From NCBI GenBank assembly GCA_025054835.1, contig JANWZQ010000052.1, positions 1-40,806 on the forward strand: a stretch of 40,806 nt of DNA. Direction: 5' to 3'. Both the position numbers and the translations under genes were made by a program. Below the pieces are notes generated by a model that saw nothing but the letters and a program-made list of their open reading frames with translations, made no database searches and was not told the origin of the DNA. The DNA is from Chthonomonadaceae bacterium. GTDB taxonomy: Bacteria > Armatimonadota > Chthonomonadetes > Chthonomonadales > Chthonomonadaceae. Below, piece by piece: positions 1,769 to 33,969 of this stretch; position 1 is the first letter of the stretch; each line of letters begins with the position of its first letter.

Positions 1769-2554
1769 TCAGGGGAGCTCGCGGAACCGCCAGATCAGAT
1801 TGGCGCCCCGATCCTGTGCGTTGATGAAATTGGCCGAATAACTCTTCGCATGGCCATCCGCGAAAACCAGACTGGCGGTTCCCTGCCCGTTGCCCGTGGC
1901 AAAATGCCGACAGAAGACCGGTTTCAGCTGGTTGGGACTTCGTGTCGCGCCCAGCTCAGCCACCAGATCACGGTCCGCTACCAGTGGGGTGGACAGACGC
2001 AGATCGATCGGGTTCACCGGGCCGTTGGCTGGATTGAACACGTATCCCCGGTACTTGCTGGCCAGTGGCCCTCCCGGTGTGTCCGCCATCAGTACCCCGC
2101 GTGCTGGCTCGTCAATCATGGCGATGTGCAACGCTTCCGGCAATCCTTCTGGATTGGGGGGATTGATCCGTTGATCTACCGCGGTCGTCTCATTGTAGCC
2201 CAGAGTCCCGAAGTTCCGGGTTGCCCAGCTGGCCGGGTACTGCCGCGGCGTTGCGCTCGGGCAGAGGAAGATACCCTCGTTGCGCACGTATGATTGCACG
2301 ATCTCCGACCAGATCCGCGGCGTGCTCCCATCCGGGGGGCGCAGGGATGCTGGAACGATATACTCGTCGTAGTCCTGGCAGTACATGTAGAGCGCTGTTG
2401 CCAGCTGACGCGCGTTGGATATACATCCTGTCTGCCGGGCTTTCTCCCGGGCCTGCGCGAACACCGGGAACAGGATCGCTGCCAGAATAGCGATGATCGC
2501 GATCACTACAAGTAACTCAATCAACGTGAATCCCGACCGCTTCAGACGCGGCAT
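1769..2554 (-). CDS. DUF1559-type prepilin-like protein (type II/IV pseudopilin)
   Basis: The 261-residue product opens [20 protein letters not shown]. This is a short basic leader, a Gly-Phe prepilin peptidase cleavage site, Glu at +5 and a long hydrophobic helix, the classic N-methylation motif. It continues with [27 protein letters not shown], typical of DUF1559 proteins of Armatimonadota and Planctomycetota. A globular part of about 190 residues follows. The C-terminus carries [25 protein letters not shown], the H-x(n)-DG signature of this family. Such proteins occur in many paralogues per genome and are thought to be exported by a pseudopilus-type system; their individual roles are unknown. 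An AAGGAG site lies upstream of the ATG. Family assignment is firm and is the main taxonomic clue in the window. Confidence 0.9.
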
Positions 2555-2637
2555 ATTTCCGTTCTCCTTCCTTTCTGTACCTGCCCTCCGGGATACATGC
2601 TCAGGAATGCACGCCGGTGCTCCTGAACCCGGTACCT

Positions 2638-3675
2638 CTAAATCAGAAACTGCCCGTCGCGCATGATTTGCAGGTCATCGGCCCAGATATCGAAATGGAG
2701 CCCGACCACATCGATATGCGTGGAGGAGTCCCATGGTGCCCCGGTATGTGCCCCGTAGGGATTCCCGAACGCCACATGGATCCCGGGCACCTTCTCATCC
2801 TGCAGGATGTTGCCGATCACCCCGCGCAATCCGATGTTGGTGCCTATGGCGAACTCTCCAACACGGTCACTGTTCTCATCCGTATGTGTGTACTTCCAGA
2901 ACTCCGCTTCCAATTCCTTGTTCGCGCACTCCACCGACTTCAGGCGATTACCCTCCACGGTGATCGTCAACGGCGTCTCACGCAGGCTTCCGTATCTGGC
3001 GCACAGGTAGTCTCCCACCACGCCATCTACTACAAAAACGCCGTTCACCTCCAGGGGAGTTGTGAACACCTCTCCACCGGGCAGGTTACCCCACTTTTGC
3101 GCGCTGATGATCCCGCTCGTTTTCAACCACCGGTATTCCGGCGTCAGAGTTGCAGTGATATCGGTCCCTGCCGGGGTGCGTGCACGGATCTGCCGGGCCC
3201 GGGTCACCACATCGAACACGCGCACGCTCAGGGCATCCACGGCCAGATAGTCGGCGCGCATGCCCTCCAGCATGATCTGCCGCTCGATGTTCACCATGTG
3301 CGCATGCCGGATCCGCCGCCGGTTCACGACCTCGGTCATCTGCATGCGCGTGCGCAACTCATTTTCCTGTGCCCGCACCGCAAAGATGCTTACCTGACTG
3401 CTCTCCAGGTCCTCCAGAACCGGCCGGGGCATGTCCGCAAGCGGGCGGGGCGCATAGTCCTCCAGGATGAACGGATGAAATGGCGCGCCGACCCGGTCCA
3501 GCTCCACCGCCAGCGCAGCAGCGATCTCCAGACAGGCCTGATCCGTGATCAGGGTCACCTTCTCCTCGGGGTGCACGCGCAGGCACACCCGTACCGCGTT
3601 CGCAGCTCCCGGCAGAAGCTCCGGGTCCACAGGCAGCTCCAGCAAACGTCTTCGGCTCTGTTCCAGCAAGTTCAT
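2638..3675 (-). CDS. M29-family aminopeptidase (leucyl aminopeptidase, AmpS/AmpT-like)
   Basis: The 345-residue product belongs to the thermophilic metallo-aminopeptidase group (peptidase family M29), which removes N-terminal residues using two metal ions. Expected ligands and catalytic residues are visible: Glu202 in [11 protein letters not shown], Glu274 in GEFAIGTN, His300 in [10 protein letters not shown], with Tyr307 in the same loop, His320 and Asp322 in THIDVVG. The protein is shorter than the roughly 400 residues of classical AmpS, mainly in the N-terminal part, but the C-terminal catalytic block is intact. No signal peptide is seen, so it is cytoplasmic. Its ATG overlaps the stop of the upstream ligase-like gene by 4 bp, so translation is probably coupled. 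Specificity is broad in this family and cannot be predicted. Confidence 0.85.
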
Positions 3676-4808
3676 GATTGTGCGTCACTCTCACCCGCGT
3701 CTGTCTCTGGCAGGCGTCGGGTCTCCTCGATGATATAGTCCACGACTTTCTTTAAATCCCCGGTTTCCCGGTAAACGTTCAATTGTCGGTCAGCGCCGGT
3801 ACCCATCTGCAGGATCTGGCGTACGTAATTCACCTCCTCCCGGCTCCCCAGTTCGTCTACCACATCGTCCACGAACTCCAGATACTCCAGTAGCAGTTCG
3901 CGCTCAGGTACCTCCTGCTGCTTGCCGAAATCGATCAGCTTCCCCTCGATCCCGTAGCGCGCCGCACGCCACTTGTTCTCCATGATCAGAGCGCGACTGT
4001 ACCGCCGGAAGTCCTGGTTCATACGATGCAGCTTGTAGATCTTGGCCACCGTTGCCTGCATCAGGGCCACGATGGCAATCGTCTCATCCACACGCATGGG
4101 CACATCGCAGATACGAAACTCCAGCGTCGGGTAGAACGGATGCGGCCGGATGTCCCACCAGATCTTCTTGGCATTGTCGATACAGTTGGTCCGCACCAGC
4201 AGATTAACAAACGACTCGTACTCGTTCCAGCTGGAGAACATGTCCGGAATATTGGTGCGCGGGAACTTATCGAACACCTTGCTCCGGTACGACTTGAGGC
4301 CTGTATTCATGCCGAGCCAGAACGGGGAATTGGTCGAAAGCGCCAGCAAGTGCGGCAGGAAGTAGCGGGCCGTGTTCATGATCTGGATCGCTTCCTCCCG
4401 GTCCTTGATCCCGATATGCACGTGCAGCCCGAAGATGAGGTTTTCGCGCGCCACCACCTGCAGATCCTCCACAATCGTATCGTAGCGCGCGTCCGGATAG
4501 ATCCCCTGTGTCCGCCAGTCGGCAAACGGGTGCGTGCCCGCCGCAGCTACCTTCAGGCCGTTATCCGCTGCCAGACGGATCAACTGCTGTCGTAACGCCG
4601 TTAGCTCCCGCTTGGCATGCTTGATATCCTCGCACACCCCGGTCCCTACCTCCACAACCGACTGGTGCATTTCTGCTTTGACCGATTCGTAGAGCAGCAT
4701 CTTGCCCTTTTGAATGATCTCGGTGTCGATGTGGGAACGCAGGTCCCGCGTTTCCGGGTCAATCGTCTGATACTCTTCCTCAATCCCGATGTTGAAGCTG
4801 GGTCGCAT
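3672..4808 (-). CDS. Carboxylate-amine ligase of the YbdK / GCS2 family
   Basis: This 378-residue protein matches the glutamate-cysteine ligase family 2 fold throughout. Visible elements are FNIGIEEEYQTIDPETRDL at the N-terminus (metal-binding Glu residues), VEVGTGVCEDI, AAGTHPFADW, LIFGLHVHIGIKDREEA near residue 125, SPFWLGMNTGLKSYRS near residue 160, and WWDIRPHPFYPTLEFRICDVP near residue 215. YbdK-type members use ATP to join a carboxylate to an amine and have weak glutamate-cysteine ligase activity in vitro; the physiological product is usually unknown. A true GshA role is possible, but no gshB is visible here. It overlaps the M29 aminopeptidase gene by 4 bp, hinting that amide or dipeptide synthesis and hydrolysis are linked. 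Family confidence is high and substrate confidence low. Confidence 0.88.
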   Translation of the reverse strand: MRPSFNIGIEEEYQTIDPETRDLRSHIDTEIIQKGKMLLYESVKAEMHQSVVEVGTGVCEDIKHAKRELTALRQQLIRLAADNGLKVAAAGTHPFADWRTQGIYPDARYDTIVEDLQVVARENLIFGLHVHIGIKDREEAIQIMNTARYFLPHLLALSTNSPFWLGMNTGLKSYRSKVFDKFPRTNIPDMFSSWNEYESFVNLLVRTNCIDNAKKIWWDIRPHPFYPTLEFRICDVPMRVDETIAIVALMQATVAKIYKLHRMNQDFRRYSRALIMENKWRAARYGIEGKLIDFGKQQEVPERELLLEYLEFVDDVVDELGSREEVNYVRQILQMGTGADRQLNVYRETGDLKKVVDYIIEETRRLPETDAGESDAQS

Positions 4809-22289: not shown

Positions 22290-23600
22290 GTGCGCAGGGT
22301 ATGTATTGTGCTGGGTATCGGGCTGGCCTCAGCCGGGCTCGGGCAAACGCAATCGGCAGAGGTCTGGCAGGGTGGAGCGCTTTCTGTTCAGCAGGCCGTA
22401 GCGATCGCTCTGCGGGACAACCCGCAGGCGCATGCAATCCGCGCGGAGGCGCGTGCCGCAGCAGCAGACATCCGCTTCGCTCGCAGTCAGACACGTCCAC
22501 AGGTGTCTGCCAACACGTACCTGACCTACGGTGACATGCCGGCGGTTCTGTACTCTGTCGGCGGCGTGATGCCCGGCAGTCTGATCGTCGCTCCGTCACA
22601 GGGCCTCGTGGATCAGAACCTGACCCTGATGGTGCCCCTCTACACAGGTGACCGGTTGCGCGCGCAGGTACGGGCAACGCAGGCGCGCGCGCAGGCGGCG
22701 ATGGCAATCCTACGGCAGACGGAGGCCGAGATCGCGCTGCAAGTGCGTGAGGCCTACTACCGTGCCCTGTGGGAGGCGGAGAACGTGCGCGCGGCGCAGG
22801 CGCAGCGAGAGGCCACGCTCGCCATGGCCCGTGTTACGCAGGCGTTGTGGGAGGCTGGTAAAGGGCTGGAAGCTTCCGTACGGCGCGTGGAGGCGGAACA
22901 GGCAGCCACGCAGCGCGACCTGACTGCTGCGCGTAACGAGGAGGCGAAAGCGCTGCTGGACCTGCGGATCGCCATGGGCGTGCGCCCCGATGTTCCTCTC
23001 TCGCTCTCGGAACCCCTCGTCTTTACTCCCCCTGCAAAGGATCTGAACGGGTACCTGCAGGCTGCCGCCGAGAACCGCCCGGAATTGCAGGCGGCACGCC
23101 TGCTCCTGACAGCAGCCGGGCACCAGCTGCGCTCTGCACGAGGTGCGCAGAGCCCGCAGGTCTACGGCATGGCAATGGCCGATGGCTTCCTCTCGAACCG
23201 CATGGGCACGCGGGGTGGCTACAACGTGGGAGTGATCCTGAGCCTGCCGCTTCTGGACGCTGGAGAGAGGCGGGCCGGGATTGACCGGGCGGAGGCGTTG
23301 CAGGCACGCGCCGCAGCGGACCTGCACCGATTGCAGTTACAGGTGGAGACAGAGGTCCGACGCGCCTGGCTGGACGTGGAGGCGGCAGCGCAGAACTACC
23401 GGGCGGCACAGGAAGCGCTGCGGGCAGCGCAGGTCGCCTACGACGTGGCCGCATTGCGTGTGGAGAACCAGCGAGGCCTGCTGGTGGAGCAGCTGGACGC
23501 TCTGGCAGTCCTGACACGGGCGCGCCGGGATGTGGCCCGGGCGCTCCACGACCACGCGGTTGCAGTGGCTCGCCTGCAACGCGCGGCTGGCCTGCCATAG
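22290..23600 (+). CDS. TolC-family outer-membrane efflux channel protein
   Basis: The GTG start has TGAGG 7 nt upstream. The 436-residue product has a short signal peptide (VLGIGLASAGLGQ) and two repeats of the outer-membrane efflux protein (OEP) domain. Each starts with a helix such as LSVQQAVAIALRDNPQAHAIRAEARAAAADI, then a beta-hairpin segment (VSANTYLTY...QNLTLMVPLYTG; second copy NVGVILSLPLLDAGERRAG). Long Ala/Arg/Glu-rich helices follow (AQATQARAQAAMAILRQTEA type). This is the trimeric channel that carries efflux substrate across the outer membrane. Length is typical. It is 30 bp ahead of the adaptor gene, so the operon encodes a complete tripartite pump. Family assignment is firm; substrate is inferred from neighbours. 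Confidence 0.92.
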   Translation: MRRVCIVLGIGLASAGLGQTQSAEVWQGGALSVQQAVAIALRDNPQAHAIRAEARAAAADIRFARSQTRPQVSANTYLTYGDMPAVLYSVGGVMPGSLIVAPSQGLVDQNLTLMVPLYTGDRLRAQVRATQARAQAAMAILRQTEAEIALQVREAYYRALWEAENVRAAQAQREATLAMARVTQALWEAGKGLEASVRRVEAEQAATQRDLTAARNEEAKALLDLRIAMGVRPDVPLSLSEPLVFTPPAKDLNGYLQAAAENRPELQAARLLLTAAGHQLRSARGAQSPQVYGMAMADGFLSNRMGTRGGYNVGVILSLPLLDAGERRAGIDRAEALQARAAADLHRLQLQVETEVRRAWLDVEAAAQNYRAAQEALRAAQVAYDVAALRVENQRGLLVEQLDALAVLTRARRDVARALHDHAVAVARLQRAAGLP

Positions 23601-23630
23601 CGTGGGGCACATCACGGAAAGGAGTAGTGC

Positions 23631-25439
23631 ATGCAAGGGAAAGGAGTTTCCGCAGGAACGCGCGCGTTTCTCGGAGGCGTGCTGCTGCTGGCTGCGATGT
23701 GGGGCGCCTCGACACACGCGATCCATCACTGGCGGCGCAAGGGTGCGATGACGCCCATCGAGGCGCAGGCTATGGACATGGATCTGCCCGCGCCCTATGG
23801 CACAGCCCCGGTCGAGCTAGCCCCTGTGCGGCGCGGGCGAATCGCACAAACGGTTCGCTACGCGGGGCAGGCAGTCGGCTACGTGGAAGCGGAAGTCAAC
23901 GCCCGCGTGGAGGGCATTGTGAAGGGAGTTCACGTTTACGTTGGAGAGGCAGTACGTCCAGGGCAGTTACTGGCCCATCTGGACGTCACTCGCAGTGCCC
24001 CGCAGACCGCGGAGCGACGCGCGGCGCTGCACGTGGCGGAGCGCGGCGTAGCGGTCGCACAGGGAGAACAGCGGCAGGCACAGGCCGTTGCTGCAGAGGC
24101 CCACGCTGAGGCCGGCATGCGGCAGGCTGCTCTGGAGGCAGCCCGGGCGGAGCTGGAGGGGGCTCGCCTGTCGCAGGCTCGGGCGCAGGCCACGCTGGAG
24201 GCGTGGCAGGCACAGGCAATCGAGGTGGAAGCACAGTTGCAGGCCGCACAGGCCGGACGAGAGTACTGGCAACAGGAACTTGCACGCACGCAGAAGCTGC
24301 TTTCCGGAGGCGCAGTAACGCTCGAAGAGTACCAGCGTACGCTGGCCACAGCACGCAACGCAGAAGCACAGGTGCGGCAGGCGGAGGCGCGTCAGATGCA
24401 GGTGCAGGCGCAGATCCGCGTGGCACAGGCCGAGCGGCAGCAGGCAGAAGCAATGGTCCGCGCGGCGCAGGCCCGGGTGCAGGAAACCGGGGCGGAACTC
24501 AGGGCGCACCTGGCCCACGTGCAGGCCGCACAGGCCGGCGCGGTCACAGCACGGGAGAAGCTCACGCAGGCCCGTGCGAACGTGGTACAGGCCCGGGCAG
24601 CCCTCACAGAAGCCCGGGTCATCCAGGGTTACAGCAAGATCCGGGCGCAGACACAGGGCGTGGTGACACAACGTGTTGTGAGCCCGGGCACCCTGGTCAG
24701 TCCCGGTCAGACGTTGCTGCGGATCGCACAGATCGCTCCGATCCGCTTGCAGGCACATGTGGCAGAAGCAGACCTGTCCCGTATCCGGGTAGGAAGCCGG
24801 GTGCGGGTTTTCGTGCGCGACAGCACACGTCCCCCGGTGCAAGCACATGTCACTTCCATCGCGCCCGCGGTCGATCCTGTGGCACGCACGGGCGTTGTCG
24901 AGGCCGTGGTGCCCAACCACGATCGGCGTTTTCTGCCCGGCCAGTTCGTGACTCTGGAGGTCACACTGGAGGAGAAGGCAGAGGCACTGTACGTGCCTCT
25001 ACGGGCCCTGCGCCATCGTACTCCGGCTACCGGCCGGGTGCTCTCCACGCATCCCGGGACCACTGTATGGGTGGCGGAACCCGTGTCGGGTGAACCACAT
25101 CGGTACACGGTGCGCGAGGTTGCTGTCCGTGTCGGGCTGCGCGATGGCGACACAATTGAAGTGCTCTCCGGCCTGAGCGCAGGACAGAAAGTGGTGGTTG
25201 TCGGTCAGGATTTCCTGCACGACGGCGACACCGTGCATGACCGCACGGCTCCCCTTCCCTCGCCAGCAGGCACGCAGGTTCCCGCAGGTTCTTCCCGTAC
25301 AGGCCGTCCCGTACCGCCTTCTGGCTCCCCGGCGGTCTACACCTGCCCGATGCACCCGGAAGTGAACCGGCAGAGCCCGGGAGACTGCCCGAAATGCCAG
25401 ATGAAACTGGTGCGCACGCGAAAGGCAGGGCGACCATGA
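23631..25439 (+). CDS. RND/HlyD-type periplasmic adaptor with C-terminal heavy-metal-binding domain
   Basis: AAAGGAG lies 6 nt before the ATG. The 602-residue protein has an N-terminal membrane segment (FLGGVLLLAAMWGAS), a lipoyl/barrel-sandwich half (VEGIVKGVHVYVGEAVRPGQLLAHLD, about 95-120), and a very long Ala/Gln/Arg-rich coiled-coil hairpin (about 125-330). The second lipoyl half (YSKIRAQTQGVVTQRVVSPGTLV) and beta-barrel and membrane-proximal domains follow (RIRVGSRVRVFVRD, FLPGQFVTLEV). At about 568-596 is VYTCPMHPEVNRQSPGDCPKC, the heavy-metal-binding domain (HMBD) with the YxCPMHP and CPxCxM elements. HMBDs usually occur in copper/silver adaptors and P-type ATPases, supporting a metal substrate. 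The coiled coil is longer than usual for CusB. The stop overlaps the pump gene start by 4 bp. Confidence 0.9.
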   Translation: MQGKGVSAGTRAFLGGVLLLAAMWGASTHAIHHWRRKGAMTPIEAQAMDMDLPAPYGTAPVELAPVRRGRIAQTVRYAGQAVGYVEAEVNARVEGIVKGVHVYVGEAVRPGQLLAHLDVTRSAPQTAERRAALHVAERGVAVAQGEQRQAQAVAAEAHAEAGMRQAALEAARAELEGARLSQARAQATLEAWQAQAIEVEAQLQAAQAGREYWQQELARTQKLLSGGAVTLEEYQRTLATARNAEAQVRQAEARQMQVQAQIRVAQAERQQAEAMVRAAQARVQETGAELRAHLAHVQAAQAGAVTAREKLTQARANVVQARAALTEARVIQGYSKIRAQTQGVVTQRVVSPGTLVSPGQTLLRIAQIAPIRLQAHVAEADLSRIRVGSRVRVFVRDSTRPPVQAHVTSIAPAVDPVARTGVVEAVVPNHDRRFLPGQFVTLEVTLEEKAEALYVPLRALRHRTPATGRVLSTHPGTTVWVAEPVSGEPHRYTVREVAVRVGLRDGDTIEVLSGLSAGQKVVVVGQDFLHDGDTVHDRTAPLPSPAGTQVPAGSSRTGRPVPPSGSPAVYTCPMHPEVNRQSPGDCPKCQMKLVRTRKAGRP

Positions 25440-28400
25440 GCACTTACTCCTCGATGCCCCCGCAACCGGGACCGGAGACTGAAAAGCCGCGCGCGTACCA
25501 TGCGCTTCATCTGATCCATCGCTGGAGTATCGAGCACCCGCATGCGGTGATCGCGTTCTACGTGGCAGCAGTTGTTCTGGCGTGGCTGGCCATGGCACGG
25601 TTAATCCCCCGTCGCTTTGCGCCCTATGTAGAAAGCCCGATGATCGGGATTGTGACGATGATGCCGGGCCTCTCTGCTCAGGAGATGGAGCTCTACGTGA
25701 GCAACCCGATCGAGCAGCAGATGGTGCACATCAAAGGCCTGCGCTACATCCGCTCCACGTCGCAGAACGGTTTCTCGATCGTGACCCTGGAGTTCCCGTA
25801 CGGCACGGACATGCAGCGCGCGCTGGTAGACGTGCAGGCATTGATGAACGTTACGCAGTCGAACCTGCCCATGACCGGAGCGAACTTGAAGCCCTCCTGG
25901 GTGGTGCCCATCGATCCACTGAACCTGCCGGTGCTCACGTTGAGTCTACGCGGAGATGCCACACAGGGATGGGACCTGGCGCGTGTGCGCGAACTGGCGG
26001 ACAACACCGTGGTGAACCGGATCAAGAGCGTGCCGGGTGTCTACTCGGTGGTTCCTTTCGGGGGTTATCGCCGGCAGATGCAAGTGCTGGTGGACCGGGA
26101 GAAGCTGGCAGCACACAATCTTTCGATCTTACAGGTACGGGACGCCATCGACCGCTACAACGTAGCGCGCCCTGCCGGCACCCTGACCCACGGGCCACGG
26201 GAAGAAATCGTCCGCATGGACATGCGTGCGTTGCGCGCGGAGGATGTGCACAACATCCCGGTTGTATCGGTCAGTACGGAGGCCGGACGTGCCCCTCGCG
26301 TGATCTACGTGCGGGACGTAGCCGATGTGGTGGATGCGCACTGGGAGCGACGCAGCGCCTATCACTACCTGAAGCACGAGCCGGGACGTGCCGCGGAGGT
26401 GATCCCGTCTATCTCGATCTCGGTGCTGCAGAACCCCGGCGCCAGTTCTGCTGCGACCGTCCCGGCCGTCATGCAGGTGGTACGGCAGCTGGAGGCGGAG
26501 TATCCGGGGATCCAGTTCGAGATAGCGTATGACAACGCGCACTTCGTGAATGTGCTGTTCCGGAACGTGTGGCAGGAGCTGGCGATCGCCGTGGGTCTGA
26601 CCGCGTTAGCCGTGCTGCTCTTTCTGGGGGAGTGGCGCGGCACGCTCATCGTGATGGTCACTGTGCCGACATCGCTGGCGCTGGCTGTACTGCTGATGGT
26701 ACCTTTCGGAATGAGTTTCAATTCGGGCACGTTGATTGGCCTGTTGCTCTGCATTGGCCGTCTGGTCGACGACTCGATTATCGACATTCATGCAGTAGAG
26801 CGCCATCTGCGAATGGGTAAAGACCCGAAGACAGCAACGATCGACGGGATTGCCGAGGTGCGTGTGGCTGTGATCGCCTCCACCCTGATGATCGTGATTG
26901 CGCTGGCCCCGTTGCTGTTCGCCGGTGGGATCACACAGCTGATGTTTGAAGAGCTGGTGTGGCCCCTGTTGTTCGGCCTGATCGCCTCCATGCTCGTTTC
27001 ATTCACACTGACAGCGTTGCTCTGTGCCCACCTGCTACGTCCTGAGAACGTGCGAGCGGCGGAACGTCGGCATCCGGTATTGCGATGGATTTACGCCTGC
27101 CTGGACCCGTTTCAGCGATTTCTGGACCGCCTGGAGGCGGGCTACGCCCGCACCGTTCGCTGGATGCTCCGCAACCGCTTCACCAACCTGACCCGGATCC
27201 TGGCAACGCTCATTCTCGGGATGACCTTCTACTACTTCATTGGCTCGGAGATGATGCCCCTGGCGGATGTAGGGCAGGCTGTGGGCTTTCTGGAGATGGC
27301 CCCGGGAACCTCTTTCCAGGAGACGGAGCGCGCCGTACGCCGCCTTGAGGGGATTCTGGCGCGATATCCGGAGCTGGAGAAGGCAAGCATCGAAATCGGA
27401 GCGGAGACGATGTTCGAGAGCTTCACTCCCTACTACACGGGATACCAGATGCCGCAGGTGAACGGGGCGGTGATGATGCTCACCTTCAGCGACAAGGATA
27501 CGCGTCGGCGCAGCATCTTCACGCTTATAGATGCCATTCAACGGGAGGCGCTGACAACGATCCCCGGGATCCGGCGCCTGCAGATCAAGGAAATGGGATC
27601 GGACGTGATGGCCACGGCGGCTGCGCCGATCCATGTGAATATCTACGGCCCGGAGTTGCAGATGCTGGATCGGCTGGGACAGGAAGCGTTGCGGGTCGCT
27701 CAGAAGATGCCAGAGTTGTTCCAGCCCGGTGTAACCTGGACACTGGGGCTCCCGGAGCATCGCGTGCGGGTGGATCCGCAACGGGCGCAGGAGATGGGCC
27801 TGTCGGCCACGGAGATCGCGGAGCAGGCGTACTATGCTCTTTCCGGCGGATTGACGGCCGAGTTCTTCCGACTGCCCCACCTGCGTCAGAACACCATTCA
27901 GGTGCGCTACGCGCCGGACGATCGGGCTACCGTGGACGACCTGGAGAACCTGTACGTGACGGCCCCGGATGGCCGACAGATCCCGCTCAGTTCCGTGGCA
28001 CGGGTTGAGCGGGATCTGGCCCCTACAGCGATCGAGCACGATGGCCTGAAACGTGTGATCGGGATCACAGGCTACTATCGCATTGGGAGCCTGCCCTCGA
28101 TGGACGTTGTGATGAATCTGACGGCCAATCTGTACGGGGGAAACGAGGAGCTCGGGATCCAGCCTCTCAATTTCCCTCCGGGTTATGGCATGGAGATCCG
28201 CGGGGACATGAAGGAGATGATGGGCTCCTTTGCCCGGATGCTGAACGGCCTGTGGCTGGCCCTCATGTTGATGTATCTGGTGCTGGTGGTACAGTTCCGT
28301 GGCTTTCTGCAACCGTTTCAGATGATCGCCTCGCTCCCGTTGGAGCTGGCCGGGGTGTTCATCGCGCTCTGGATCGCCGGGCAGTCGTTCTCCACGGTCT

Positions 28401-28807
28401 CTATTCTGGGGATCATCGTGTTGACCGGCATGGACATCACGACGGCTGTGCTGCTGATCGACATGATCATGCGCTACCGGGATCAGGGCCTGCCCCGCGA
28501 TGAGGCGATCGCGCAGGCCTGCCCACAACGGCTGCGACCGATCCTGATGACCGCCGGGATCACGCTGGTGGTTCTGCTGCCGATCGCGCTGGCCCCCCGG
28601 ACCGGTCTGGATGCCTATCAGCCGCTGGCGACCACGGTGATCGGCGGCCTGCTGGCGGGCACAACGCTGAGCCTGTTCGACATTCCGATCATGCACACGT
28701 ACATGGATGATCTGATGCGATGGTTCTATCGCACAGTGCTCCGGAGGGAGTGGCAGTGGCCATCGACTCGCGGGAGTGTGGCAGCGCAGAGCGCAGAGGG
28801 AGACTGA
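25436..28807 (+). CDS. RND-superfamily efflux permease
   Basis: The start is the ATG overlapping the adaptor stop (ATGA). The 1123-residue length and layout are those of RND pumps: a first membrane helix (VIAFYVAAVVLAWLAMARL), a porter domain (MMPGLSAQEMELYVSNPIEQQM, then GVYSVVPFGG), membrane helices 2-6 from about residue 380, a second periplasmic half, and helices 8-12. In TM4, Asp445-Asp446 of RLVDDSIIDIHAVE match the proton-relay pair of HAE-type pumps. In TM10 the HAE-type KNAILLVD is TTAVLLID here, preceded by Asp1000, so the relay Lys is missing. It is therefore neither a clear AcrB-type nor a clear CusA-type pump. Metal-binding neighbours suggest metal export. Its stop codon directly abuts that of convergent uvrC. 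Confidence 0.92.
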   Translation: MSTYSSMPPQPGPETEKPRAYHALHLIHRWSIEHPHAVIAFYVAAVVLAWLAMARLIPRRFAPYVESPMIGIVTMMPGLSAQEMELYVSNPIEQQMVHIKGLRYIRSTSQNGFSIVTLEFPYGTDMQRALVDVQALMNVTQSNLPMTGANLKPSWVVPIDPLNLPVLTLSLRGDATQGWDLARVRELADNTVVNRIKSVPGVYSVVPFGGYRRQMQVLVDREKLAAHNLSILQVRDAIDRYNVARPAGTLTHGPREEIVRMDMRALRAEDVHNIPVVSVSTEAGRAPRVIYVRDVADVVDAHWERRSAYHYLKHEPGRAAEVIPSISISVLQNPGASSAATVPAVMQVVRQLEAEYPGIQFEIAYDNAHFVNVLFRNVWQELAIAVGLTALAVLLFLGEWRGTLIVMVTVPTSLALAVLLMVPFGMSFNSGTLIGLLLCIGRLVDDSIIDIHAVERHLRMGKDPKTATIDGIAEVRVAVIASTLMIVIALAPLLFAGGITQLMFEELVWPLLFGLIASMLVSFTLTALLCAHLLRPENVRAAERRHPVLRWIYACLDPFQRFLDRLEAGYARTVRWMLRNRFTNLTRILATLILGMTFYYFIGSEMMPLADVGQAVGFLEMAPGTSFQETERAVRRLEGILARYPELEKASIEIGAETMFESFTPYYTGYQMPQVNGAVMMLTFSDKDTRRRSIFTLIDAIQREALTTIPGIRRLQIKEMGSDVMATAAAPIHVNIYGPELQMLDRLGQEALRVAQKMPELFQPGVTWTLGLPEHRVRVDPQRAQEMGLSATEIAEQAYYALSGGLTAEFFRLPHLRQNTIQVRYAPDDRATVDDLENLYVTAPDGRQIPLSSVARVERDLAPTAIEHDGLKRVIGITGYYRIGSLPSMDVVMNLTANLYGGNEELGIQPLNFPPGYGMEIRGDMKEMMGSFARMLNGLWLALMLMYLVLVVQFRGFLQPFQMIASLPLELAGVFIALWIAGQSFSTVSILGIIVLTGMDITTAVLLIDMIMRYRDQGLPRDEAIAQACPQRLRPILMTAGITLVVLLPIALAPRTGLDAYQPLATTVIGGLLAGTTLSLFDIPIMHTYMDDLMRWFYRTVLRREWQWPSTRGSVAAQSAEGD

Positions 28808-30673
28808 TCAGGGACTGCTGGAGATCTCTCCAGCGGCGTGCAGATAATCGTACACGGTCTCGGCGAGCCGGCGGTTCATCCCGGGAACCGCGGCCAGTTC
28901 TTCCACGGTCGCTTCGCGCATGCGAGCCAGGCCACCGAAGTGGATCTGCAGCTGTTTGCGCCGCTTCGGTCCAATGCCGGGGATCTCTTCCAGCAGAGAG
29001 TGCGTGGCCCTGCGAGCCCGGACCCGGGCCTGATAGGCGTTGGAGAAGCGGTGCGCCTCGTCACGGATCCGCTGGAGCAGGAAGAGCGCCTGCGAATTGC
29101 GCGGCAGGATGATGGGTTCAGGCGCTTCGGGGCGGAAGAGGTACTCGAACTGCTTGGCCAGTCCTGCTACTGGCACCGGCATGCCGACCTGTAGCATGGC
29201 GGTGACGGCAGCGGATACCTGTCCCCTGCCTCCGTCTACGATCAGGAGATCGGGCAGGCGATGGAATTTCGGGTTGCCCGCCCGGGCCTCCTGCAGGCGT
29301 CGTGTGATGACCTCCTGCATGGCGGCATAGTCGTCGGGCTTGCCCTCGTTACATCGGATGCGAAATTTGCGGTACTCCTTCTTGTTCATCTGCCCGTTCT
29401 CGCAGACGACCATGGAGGCTACCTGGTTCTGGCCCTGCGTGTTGGAGATATCGAAGCACTCGATGCGCCGGGGGGGTGCCTCCAGCCCGAGGGCCTCTGC
29501 CAGTTCCTGCAGGGCACGTTCCGTGCTGCTCAACTGCGCTCGCATCTGCGCTTTGATCTGCTCCAGTGCGTGGCGTGCATTTTCCATGGCCATCTCGATC
29601 AGGTCTTTTCGCTCACCACGCCGGGGGACCCGGATCTCGACCTTCCGCCCTTTTCTCTGCCGCAACCACGCCTGTACCACCTCGATTTCGTCCATCTCAT
29701 GTGGCAGCAGGATCTCCTGCGGAATGTAGCTGGCCGACTGGTAGTACTGCTTGACGAACTCCCGGATGATCTCCGCTTCCGTCTGCTCGTCCGTGCCCTC
29801 CACCAGGTAGTGGTTCTGCCCGATGAGTTTGCCCCCGCGAATGTAGAACATCTGCACGCAGGCGCCGTTGAGACCGGTGTCGTCCGGAACCATGGCGATC
29901 ACGTCCTGATCGATGATCTGCGTACTGATCACCCGTTGCCGTTGCAACACTTCTTCCACAGAACGGAGCCGGTCGCGGATGCGGGCCGCACGTTCAAACT
30001 CCAGCTGCTCCGCTGCCTCTTCCATCTGCTGGCGCATCTTCCGGATCAGTTCCTCCTGTCGGCCCTCCAGAAAGTCGATAACATCGCGCACGGCGGCGCG
30101 GTACTCCTCCCGATTTGCCAGACCGGCACAGGGCGCCAGACACTGTCCCATGTGATAGTACAGGCAGGGCTTCTGCACCGGACGCCCATCAAAGCTTTTG
30201 CCACAGGCGATCAAGGGGAAGACCCGATTCACGACCTCCATGGTCTGGTACACGGCGCGGGAACTGGTGTATGGACCGAAGTAGCGGTTCCGATCATCGC
30301 GTACCCGCCGGACCAGCATCAGGCGCGGGAACGGCTCGGAGGTCGTGAGACAGAGGTAGGGATAGTGCTTATCGTCGCGCAGACGCACGTTGAAATGCGG
30401 CTGATATTTCTTGATGAGGGAGCACTCCAGCACCAGCGCTTCCAGCTCGCTCTCGCAGACAACGTACTCCAGATCGGCGATCTGCGCTACCAGACGGCGC
30501 ACCTTGGGGCTGAGGTTGGCGCTCTTCTGAAAGTAGGAGCGCACACGCTGGCGCAGGTTGACCGCCTTGCCAACGTAGATCACGGTGCCGCTGGCATCCT
30601 TGTGCAGATAGACGCCCGGCTTTCCGGGCAACGTCGCCAGTTTCTCCTGTACGGTTGGCGGGATCATCGGCAT
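28808..30673 (-). CDS. uvrC: Excinuclease ABC subunit UvrC
   Basis: UvrC makes the two incisions around DNA lesions in nucleotide excision repair. The start giving MPMIPPTVQEKLATLPGKPG suits the family N-terminus; no strong ribosome site is seen, and a GTG 51 bp upstream is possible. The product of about 621 residues has the GIY-YIG nuclease domain (GVYLHKDASGTVIYVGKAVN, RSYF), a Cys-containing loop (ACGKSFDGRPVQKPCLYYH), and the UVR motif near 200-235 (MEEAAEQLEFERAARIRDRL). The C-terminal RNase H-like endonuclease domain (IECFDISNTQG, SMVVCENG, DLLIVDGGRGQ) is followed by tandem helix-hairpin-helix motifs (LEEIPGIGPKRRKQL, AAVPGMNRRLAETV). All domains are present. It is monocistronic, convergent with the RND pump and divergent from mlaE. 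Confidence 0.96.
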   Translation of the reverse strand: MPMIPPTVQEKLATLPGKPGVYLHKDASGTVIYVGKAVNLRQRVRSYFQKSANLSPKVRRLVAQIADLEYVVCESELEALVLECSLIKKYQPHFNVRLRDDKHYPYLCLTTSEPFPRLMLVRRVRDDRNRYFGPYTSSRAVYQTMEVVNRVFPLIACGKSFDGRPVQKPCLYYHMGQCLAPCAGLANREEYRAAVRDVIDFLEGRQEELIRKMRQQMEEAAEQLEFERAARIRDRLRSVEEVLQRQRVISTQIIDQDVIAMVPDDTGLNGACVQMFYIRGGKLIGQNHYLVEGTDEQTEAEIIREFVKQYYQSASYIPQEILLPHEMDEIEVVQAWLRQRKGRKVEIRVPRRGERKDLIEMAMENARHALEQIKAQMRAQLSSTERALQELAEALGLEAPPRRIECFDISNTQGQNQVASMVVCENGQMNKKEYRKFRIRCNEGKPDDYAAMQEVITRRLQEARAGNPKFHRLPDLLIVDGGRGQVSAAVTAMLQVGMPVPVAGLAKQFEYLFRPEAPEPIILPRNSQALFLLQRIRDEAHRFSNAYQARVRARRATHSLLEEIPGIGPKRRKQLQIHFGGLARMREATVEELAAVPGMNRRLAETVYDYLHAAGEISSSP

Positions 30674-30850
30674 GTCAGGTTCTGCGTTCTGTGCCGGTCT
30701 CAGGAGGACAGCAGGGACCCACACATAGTTACGCAGGATGTTGCACTCAGATTTTACGACGCTCGGGACGCTGCTTCCTGTGTGTTGCTACCTGTGCCAT
30801 ACCGTACCGGGATCCCGCATATGCCCGGGGCCGCGACATCCGTGCGCTTC

Positions 30851-31714: not shown

Positions 31715-32500
31715 ATGAGCGTTCCCCAGATCCAGATCCATGACCTGGTATATGAGGTCGCGGGCAAGCGTATTCTGAACGCTATCAATCTCGAGATCGC
31801 CCGGGGCGAGATCGTCTCCATCATGGGGCAATCCGGCAGCGGCAAGACCACGTTGCTGAAGCTGATGTGCGGTCTGCTTCGCCCGACTGCCGGGCAGATC
31901 CTGGTGGAGGGAGAAGACATCACCCGGATGTCCGAGATGCAACTGGACCGGGTGCGCCTGAAAATGGGGCTGGTGTTTCAGTACGCGGCTCTGTTCGACT
32001 CACTGAATGTCTACGACAACATCGTGTTCGGGGTTGTGCGCAATCGGCGCGGGGTAACACGCCGGGAGCTGGACACGCTGGTTCGGGAACTGCTGGCGGA
32101 CGTGCACCTGCCCGGGATCGAGCGACTGTTCCCGTCGGAGCTCTCCGGAGGCATGCGCAAGCGCGTTGGTCTGGCGCGCGCGCTGGCCATGCAACCGACC
32201 ACCCTGTTTTACGACGAACCGACGAGCGGCCTGGATCCGGTGACAGCCTATGCCATCGATGCGCTGATCGTCGAAACGCGTCGCCGCTTTGGAGTTACCT
32301 CTGTCGTTGTATCGCACCATATCCCGTCGATCTTCCGGATCTCGGACCGGATCGCCATGCTGGACCGGGGCGAGATCGTTGCGTTCGGCACTCCAGCAGA
32401 ACTGGAGGCCTCACCGCAACCAGCGGTGCAGGCGTTCCTGCACCCGGACAGGAGTCTCCTCGCTGTACCGGGACACGCGCAGGATGGCGCGGCCAAGTAG
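31715..32500 (+). CDS. mlaF: MlaF-family ABC transporter ATP-binding protein
   Basis: The 261-residue ATPase has Walker A GQSGSGKTT near residue 38, a Q-loop in LVFQYAALFDSLNVYDNI (the Gln-Tyr-Ala-Ala-Leu-Phe-Asp-Ser string is typical of MlaF/Ttg2A), signature LSGGM with MRKRVGLARAL, Walker B LFYDEPTSGLDP, and the switch His in VSHH. It drives lipid movement by the MlaE permease and MCE protein. It starts 3 bp after mlaE and is followed by mlaD after 14 bp. All catalytic motifs are intact. Whether transport runs toward or away from the outer membrane cannot be read from sequence. Confidence 0.95.
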   Translation: MSVPQIQIHDLVYEVAGKRILNAINLEIARGEIVSIMGQSGSGKTTLLKLMCGLLRPTAGQILVEGEDITRMSEMQLDRVRLKMGLVFQYAALFDSLNVYDNIVFGVVRNRRGVTRRELDTLVRELLADVHLPGIERLFPSELSGGMRKRVGLARALAMQPTTLFYDEPTSGLDPVTAYAIDALIVETRRRFGVTSVVVSHHIPSIFRISDRIAMLDRGEIVAFGTPAELEASPQPAVQAFLHPDRSLLAVPGHAQDGAAK

Positions 32501-32514
32501 AAAGGAACATCCGC

Positions 32515-33969
32515 ATGGATAGCAAGGCAGCCGTAAAAGTGGGCATGTTTGCGCTGCTGGCGCTGGTGCTGGGGATCGGAGGGTACCTCTCTCTGGCACA
32601 TATCAATCCCAACACCTACATCGTGCGGGTGGACTTTGAGAACACCAGCGGTTTGCAGCGACAGAGTGTGGTGCGCATGCAGGGCGTCAACATCGGAGAG
32701 GTCGCCAGTGTCCGTCTGGACACCACGCAACGCCCTCCTCGCCCGGTCGTCCTGCTGGCTATTCGCAAGGAGATCGGCATTCCGGCCGACTCGCGCGCGC
32801 GGATCGTCTCCGGACTGCTGATTTCCAACCCGCAGGTGGAGATCGTGCCGGGCACCAGCCCGCTGCTGATTGCGCAGGACGGGAAGCAGACGATCCCGGG
32901 CGATGCGGTGGAAAGTCCTTTGCGCGCGCTCAGTCCTGAGCTGGCAGAAACCGCAGAAAAGCTGAACGCCACTTTTGACGAGTTGAACAAACGTTTTCTG
33001 GTGGCCTCGGACAAGATCAACCGGGTGCTGGATGAAACCGAACGCCTGCTGAAGACTGCCAACCGTGCGGCCCGCACCGGTGAGGATCTGATCCGGGATC
33101 CAGAACTGCGCTCCTCCCTGAGGAATACGCTGGCCAATTTTGAAGCGGCTTCCGGGCAGGTTGCCGTGACCTCGAAGGATCTGAGCCGGCAGCTGGGGGA
33201 AGTGATCACGCAAGGACAGGAGTCGCTGGAGAAGCTCACCACCAGTCTGAGCAATATTCTGGTCCGTGTGGACACCACGCTGGATGACGCGAACACCGTG
33301 GTCAAGAAGCTGACCGAACAGGTCACCGATCCGCGCCTGCAGAACACGTTGCAGGAGACCGCGGATCTGGCGCGAACCACTCTGGCGCGCTTCAACCAGA
33401 TTGCCTCGGACCTGCATCAGATCACCGGGGACCCCCTGTTGCAGAACAACCTGCGGCAAACGGTGCAGAACCTGCAGGAGGCCACCGAACAGGGGGAGGA
33501 GGCCATCCGCAAGATCAACGATCTGCTGGGGCGCCTGACCGGGGAGCGGGGTCCGGCGCCCGATCTGCGCCTGCCTCCCACGCAGTTTGTTGGCAATATC
33601 TCGGAGCAGTTGAACCCGGCACGACTGCGTGTGGACGCGGAGGCGCGCGTCCGCCTGAGTTCTGCTGACCTGCTGAATCTGGGACTGTATGACTTCGGGG
33701 GCAACACGCGCCTGATCCTGCAGGGAGGCCGCATGATTAACGATCGGTTGCTGGCACGCTACGGTCTGTATGCCTCCAAACTAGGGGTGGGGCTGGAGAC
33801 CGTGGGGCAGCAGAACGTCGGGTTCCGTGCGGACCTCTGGGACGCGAACAGGCCGCAACTTGACTTGCGCGCCCTGTTCAGGGTAAATAACAACGCTTCC
33901 GTATGGGTTGGAGCCGATGGACTGTTTCGCGATCACACCACGCCAGTCATCGGCATCCAGATACGGTAA
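32515..33969 (+). CDS. mlaD: MlaD-like MCE-domain protein with long coiled coil and C-terminal beta-domain
   Basis: AAAGGA lies 8 nt before the ATG. The 484-residue product is far longer than proteobacterial MlaD (about 180). An N-terminal membrane anchor (KVGMFALLALVLGIGGYLSL, residues 8-28) is followed by a single MCE domain (about 34-115; VRVDFENTSGLQRQSVVRMQ, GVNIGEVASVRL, IVSGLLISNPQVEIVPG). Residues 135-342 are helical with heptad-like Leu spacing. Residues 366-484 are beta-rich with alternating polar and hydrophobic residues (LRVDAEARVRLSSADLLNLG, NTRLILQGGRM, LGVGLETVG, VGFRADLW, LDLRALFRV, ASVWVGADGLF). The layout resembles the barrel-ended MlaD reported in the diderm Firmicute Veillonella, thought to bridge inner and outer membranes. 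The barrel reading is inference. Confidence 0.85.
   Translation: MDSKAAVKVGMFALLALVLGIGGYLSLAHINPNTYIVRVDFENTSGLQRQSVVRMQGVNIGEVASVRLDTTQRPPRPVVLLAIRKEIGIPADSRARIVSGLLISNPQVEIVPGTSPLLIAQDGKQTIPGDAVESPLRALSPELAETAEKLNATFDELNKRFLVASDKINRVLDETERLLKTANRAARTGEDLIRDPELRSSLRNTLANFEAASGQVAVTSKDLSRQLGEVITQGQESLEKLTTSLSNILVRVDTTLDDANTVVKKLTEQVTDPRLQNTLQETADLARTTLARFNQIASDLHQITGDPLLQNNLRQTVQNLQEATEQGEEAIRKINDLLGRLTGERGPAPDLRLPPTQFVGNISEQLNPARLRVDAEARVRLSSADLLNLGLYDFGGNTRLILQGGRMINDRLLARYGLYASKLGVGLETVGQQNVGFRADLWDANRPQLDLRALFRVNNNASVWVGADGLFRDHTTPVIGIQIR

Follow-up and report, generated by a model that had tools for sequence, protein, structure and literature searches.

The mla locus of a Chthonomonadaceae bacterium (Armatimonadota; assembly GCA_025054835.1, contig JANWZQ010000052.1) encodes an MlaD protein in which the MCE domain is followed by a long helical region and by a further domain rich in beta-strands. 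This raises the question of whether the last domain is a membrane barrel, and whether MlaE, MlaF and MlaD could by themselves connect the inner with the outer membrane. We addressed this computationally, from the window (the whole stretch of 40,806 nucleotides), the remaining genome and other genomes of the phylum. The features of the locus are listed in Table 1.

Table 1 Features of the mla operon and predicted parts of MlaD (coordinates refer to the window).
Feature	Length or residues	Position	Strand	Evidence
mlaE, permease	274 aa	30887-31711	+	Pfam PF02405, E 6.8e-69; NCBIfam TIGR00056, E 4e-58, 197 bits vs cut-off 212
mlaF, ABC ATPase	261 aa	31715-32500	+	Pfam ABC_tran, E 5e-34; best NCBIfam model MlaF PRK11831, E 1.4e-57, below equivalog cut-off
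mlaD, long barrel-type	484 aa	32515-33969	+	Translation, Pfam, AlphaFold2
N-terminal inner-membrane anchor helix of MlaD	3-27	32521-32595	+	AlphaFold2; hydrophobic sequence
MCE domain core of MlaD	34-113	32614-32853	+	Pfam PF02470, E 9e-15; Foldseek to E. coli MlaD core 5uw8
Helical stalk of MlaD, five predicted helices	141-341	32935-33537	+	AlphaFold2, pLDDT mostly 38-66
C-terminal ten-stranded beta-barrel of MlaD	356-483	33580-33963	+	AlphaFold2, Foldseek, inside-out conservation

Operon, host and outer membrane

The mlaD gene is the third of an mlaE-mlaF-mlaD operon, with intergenic gaps of 3 bases (mlaE/mlaF) and 14 bases (mlaF/mlaD). Its open reading frame had no internal stop, and the reverse-strand translation held one. 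A purine-rich stretch, AGAAAGGAA (32500-32508), is found 5' of mlaD, with the end of mlaF just upstream. On the 3' side follow rplI (34062) and dnaB (34857), the latter identified from its sequence. The gene order mlaE-mlaF-mlaD-rplI-dnaB was kept in those Chthonomonadales loci whose flanks reached far enough. In two Chthonomonadales loci (L044 and L046, about 2500-4000) mlaF and mlaD were ~1.5 kb apart. The named relatives in the protein alignment came from the Chthonomonadaceae and Chthonomonadales, all in the Armatimonadota.

No other MCE gene than mlaD was found in the genome. An earlier note on this DNA had remarked on the lack of a separate MlaB gene in the window, and no MlaB (a generic STAS domain) was present in the operon. 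It had also remarked that the window has no separate MlaA or MlaC. This extends to the genome (97% complete), in which neither was detected, and to the phylum: MlaA was found in 0/201 Armatimonadota genomes and MlaC, above cut-off, in 0/201, with one weak partial match below the cut-off in a single other genome.

BamA, TamB and LpxC were all encoded in the genome, on contig C70, and the host therefore likely has an LPS-bearing outer membrane. The three genes lie together at about 23000-30700 of this contig (loci L053, L054 and L055 of genome G000), as an outer-membrane biogenesis cluster. The window itself also carries an efflux operon (22290-28807), consisting of an outer membrane efflux protein (OEP), an HlyD-type adaptor that includes a heavy-metal binding domain, and an AcrB-family pump. 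It probably serves metal efflux and is unrelated to mla.

Domains of MlaD

The full chain was modelled with AlphaFold2 as a single chain, from an alignment with 21 relatives. Together with translation and Pfam, the model bore out the layout first read from the sequence, namely a 484-residue MlaD with an anchor, one MCE domain, ~200 helical residues and C-terminal strands. The MCE strands spanned residues 34-129, and in Foldseek the domain matched the E. coli MlaD core 5uw8 with TM-scores (by target) of 0.78-0.85 and an rmsd of 1.9-2.5. For the full-length model the best structural match was the mycobacterial Mce1 (8fed-8fef), full-length matches reflecting chiefly the MCE half of the protein. 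Assignment to two known families was rejected. MlaD scored 66 bits as an E. coli-type MlaD (TIGR04430, equivalog cut-off 135), whose partners MlaA and MlaC were not detected either, and 63.2 bits as a member of the mycobacterial Mce family (TIGR00996, family cut-off 140.5).

The stalk helices were predicted at residues 141-187, 196-233, 236-271, 273-304 and 307-341, i.e., over ~200 residues, with low confidence in their packing. Three similar units of the form DPxLQxxLxxT start at residues 195, 272 and 306, and the helix breaks before 196, 273 and 307 coincide with them. When the stalk was compared with itself, the score was 45, whereas the highest among 60 shuffles was 38; no one repeat length dominated its hydropathy periodicity. 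In the alignment, no part of MlaD is more conserved than residues 251-310, whose mean majority identity is 0.71; the MCE domain reaches 0.59 and the barrel domain 0.55. Within these residues lies the mid-stalk segment TEQVxDPRLQQSLQETxELARTTLARFNQIASDIHQ.

Modelled alone with AlphaFold2, residues 346-484 gave ten strands with a mean pLDDT of 91.9 and a pTM of 0.80. A beta-domain had been expected at 366-484; the domain is there, but that start was set about 10 residues too late, because the first strand is formed by residues 356-366. A search with the barrel-domain sequence against solved structures gave no match even at E 10, and the fold was therefore judged from the model and Foldseek. The best Foldseek matches were mostly transmembrane barrels, including designed TMBs (TM-score 0.60 to TMB10_163), the KdgM porin, OmpA, FadL and porins. 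Soluble barrels were matched too (mFAP designs, Rv2717c, lipocalin-like ones), with TM-scores close to the membrane ones. With closure judged from these fold matches, the C-terminal domain is predicted to be barrel-like, as the earlier note had supposed, and not a disordered tail: its ten strands, modelled with high confidence, resemble transmembrane barrels.

The strands have a hydrophobic face (mean hydropathy +1.98) and a polar face (-1.69), a contrast reached in 0/5000 shuffles. Such alternation does not by itself prove a membrane barrel, as soluble sheets alternate too, and a conservation test of the strand faces was therefore added. Of the two faces of the C-terminal domain, the polar one was the more conserved (entropy 1.43, vs 1.88 for the hydrophobic face), a modest contrast whose one-sided p of 0.013 is optimistic, because the alignment rows are related sequences. 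The MCE domain, which served as soluble control within this alignment, showed the reverse (2.12 polar vs 1.00 hydrophobic). The polar face of the C-terminal domain also carries most of its charged residues. This test tells membrane from soluble barrels better than alternation does: a conserved polar face and a variable hydrophobic one fit a polar interior and a variable exterior facing lipid. The usual C-terminal signal of outer-membrane barrels is aromatic. The C-terminus of MlaD ends in hydrophobic or basic residues instead, and this counts against an outer-membrane barrel.

Comparison with known systems and proposed mechanism

A minimal MlaEFD with a barrel-tipped MlaD has been described in Veillonella parvula (Grasekamp et al. 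2023, PMC10665443). There, the separated MlaD domains localised to the inner and outer membranes, and barrel-type MlaD was reported as widespread in diderm Terrabacteria (PMC10665443). The earlier note's idea of a Veillonella-type design in another diderm phylum thus holds for the layout and the missing partners but not as a novelty: the design was published in 2023 (PMC10665443), and the Armatimonadota protein adds a further member to it.

Both systems have three mlaEFD genes without MlaA and MlaC, and TamB elsewhere in the genome or nearby. In both, MlaD has a membrane helix, a single MCE domain, a long helix and a C-terminal ten-stranded barrel, a likeness of layout between the description in PMC10665443 and the prediction made here. 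The V. parvula protein is shorter (419 vs 484 residues), with about 150 instead of about 200 helical residues, and unlike it the stalk in our protein is divided into segments marked by DP motifs. The surroundings differ as well, the mla operon being followed by rplI and dnaB here and by tolC and tamB in V. parvula; the outer-membrane biogenesis cluster on contig C70 excludes mlaEFD, unlike in that species.

MlaD of E. coli (MlaFEDB) shares the membrane helix and the MCE domain, but has 183 residues, no long stalk or barrel, and works with MlaB, MlaC and MlaA. PqiB and LetB (YebT) have several MCE domains per chain and no known C-terminal outer-membrane barrel. Like the structure proposed here, they are periplasm-spanning MCE tubes (PqiB also in PMC10665443). 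Mycobacterial Mce1 (8fed-8fef) resembles the MlaD structure proposed here in that long helices after the MCE domain build a tube; it differs in being a heterohexamer with one small common barrel, to which every chain contributes a single strand (PMC10665443), whereas here each chain would have its own ten-stranded barrel.

We consider it probable that the three proteins MlaE, MlaF and MlaD make up a minimal Mla transporter like that of Veillonella, with barrels in the outer membrane and phospholipid return as its function. MlaE and MlaF would form an ATP-driven inner-membrane unit. Several MlaD chains, by analogy six as in all characterised homologues, would sit on it via their N-terminal helices, with the MCE domains arranged in a ring around a pore that conducts lipid. 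Across the periplasm this pore would be continued by the long helices, as a tube or scaffold; as the stalk model is of low confidence, we infer the spanning of the periplasm from the likeness to known systems. Placed end to end, about 190 helical residues would give a stalk of up to about 28 nm. Each chain would end in its own small ten-stranded barrel, which BamA would insert into the outer membrane. Fixed there, the barrels would anchor the tube and replace MlaA, and the tube would replace MlaC. The cargo would most likely be glycerophospholipid, taken from the outer membrane back to the inner one, by which the LPS layer would be kept free of phospholipids. The phrase 'one-protein bridge', used in the earlier note, is therefore loose, because such a bridge would be an oligomer needing MlaE and MlaF, and its insertion into the outer membrane and its span are readings by analogy.

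The barrel may do more or less than this. Tentatively, the Armatimonadota barrel could go beyond a mere anchor: as part of a near-universal single-copy bridge, the longer segmented stalk and the conserved polar barrel interior might form an outer-membrane lipid-handling site replacing MlaA, e.g., where neighbouring barrels meet. With a similarly limited chance, the barrel is an outer-membrane anchor and the helices are no lipid-conducting tube, so that the stalk just links the membranes and lipid takes another route. The V. parvula barrel is stated to be too narrow for a phospholipid, and AlphaFold models of its stalk were both open and closed (PMC10665443); the stalk modelled here is of low confidence. 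Against this, the helices of PqiB and Mce1 form closed tubes that are hydrophobic inside (cited in PMC10665443), and since MlaD is coupled to MlaE and MlaF, transport is implied.

It is unlikely, somewhat more so, that MlaEFD exports lipid or carries another hydrophobic cargo instead of returning phospholipid. Sequence cannot reveal direction or cargo, and the direction of transport is debated even for E. coli Mla. However, mla mutants of V. parvula behave as expected if the system is retrograde and TamB works against it (PMC10665443), and the genome studied here encodes TamB. Quite improbable is a soluble barrel in the periplasm, akin to lipocalins or nitrobindins, which would receive or pass lipid in a hydrophobic cavity while MlaD is anchored in the inner membrane only: soluble barrels, some lipocalin-like, are among the Foldseek matches (2fr2, 4es7, mFAP designs), but most of the best ones are membrane barrels, and a lipid cavity should show the opposite of a conserved, charge-bearing polar face and a variable hydrophobic one, as the MCE domain does.

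Spread across Armatimonadota

A match to the MlaD protein was found in 267/291 genomes of the phylum, many of them full-length, so the layout is not due to chance. The barrel domain was present in 117 of the 121 sampled Armatimonadota genomes, nearly always in one copy, and a sequence search detected none in plasmids. Two genomes had two barrel-domain matches each. In one (G183) they were neighbouring fragments in short frames, suggestive of a frameshift, and in the other (G190) they were on different contigs.

Literature searches for Mla in Armatimonadota returned only unrelated matches or none. The main text of PMC10665443 has no word beginning with Armatimonad, and its supplement may already list the phylum. 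New here are the near-universal presence in one little-studied phylum and the inside-out conservation that speaks for a membrane barrel. In the survey of PMC10665443 the barrel occurred in roughly 10% of MlaD sequences. Its presence in 117/121 genomes contrasts with this and makes the Armatimonadota a good phylum in which to ask for the role of the barrel. Because the barrel domain is so common here and MlaA and MlaC were not detected above cut-off, the results also support the published view of the bridge-like Mla system with three components as older and commoner than the other form.
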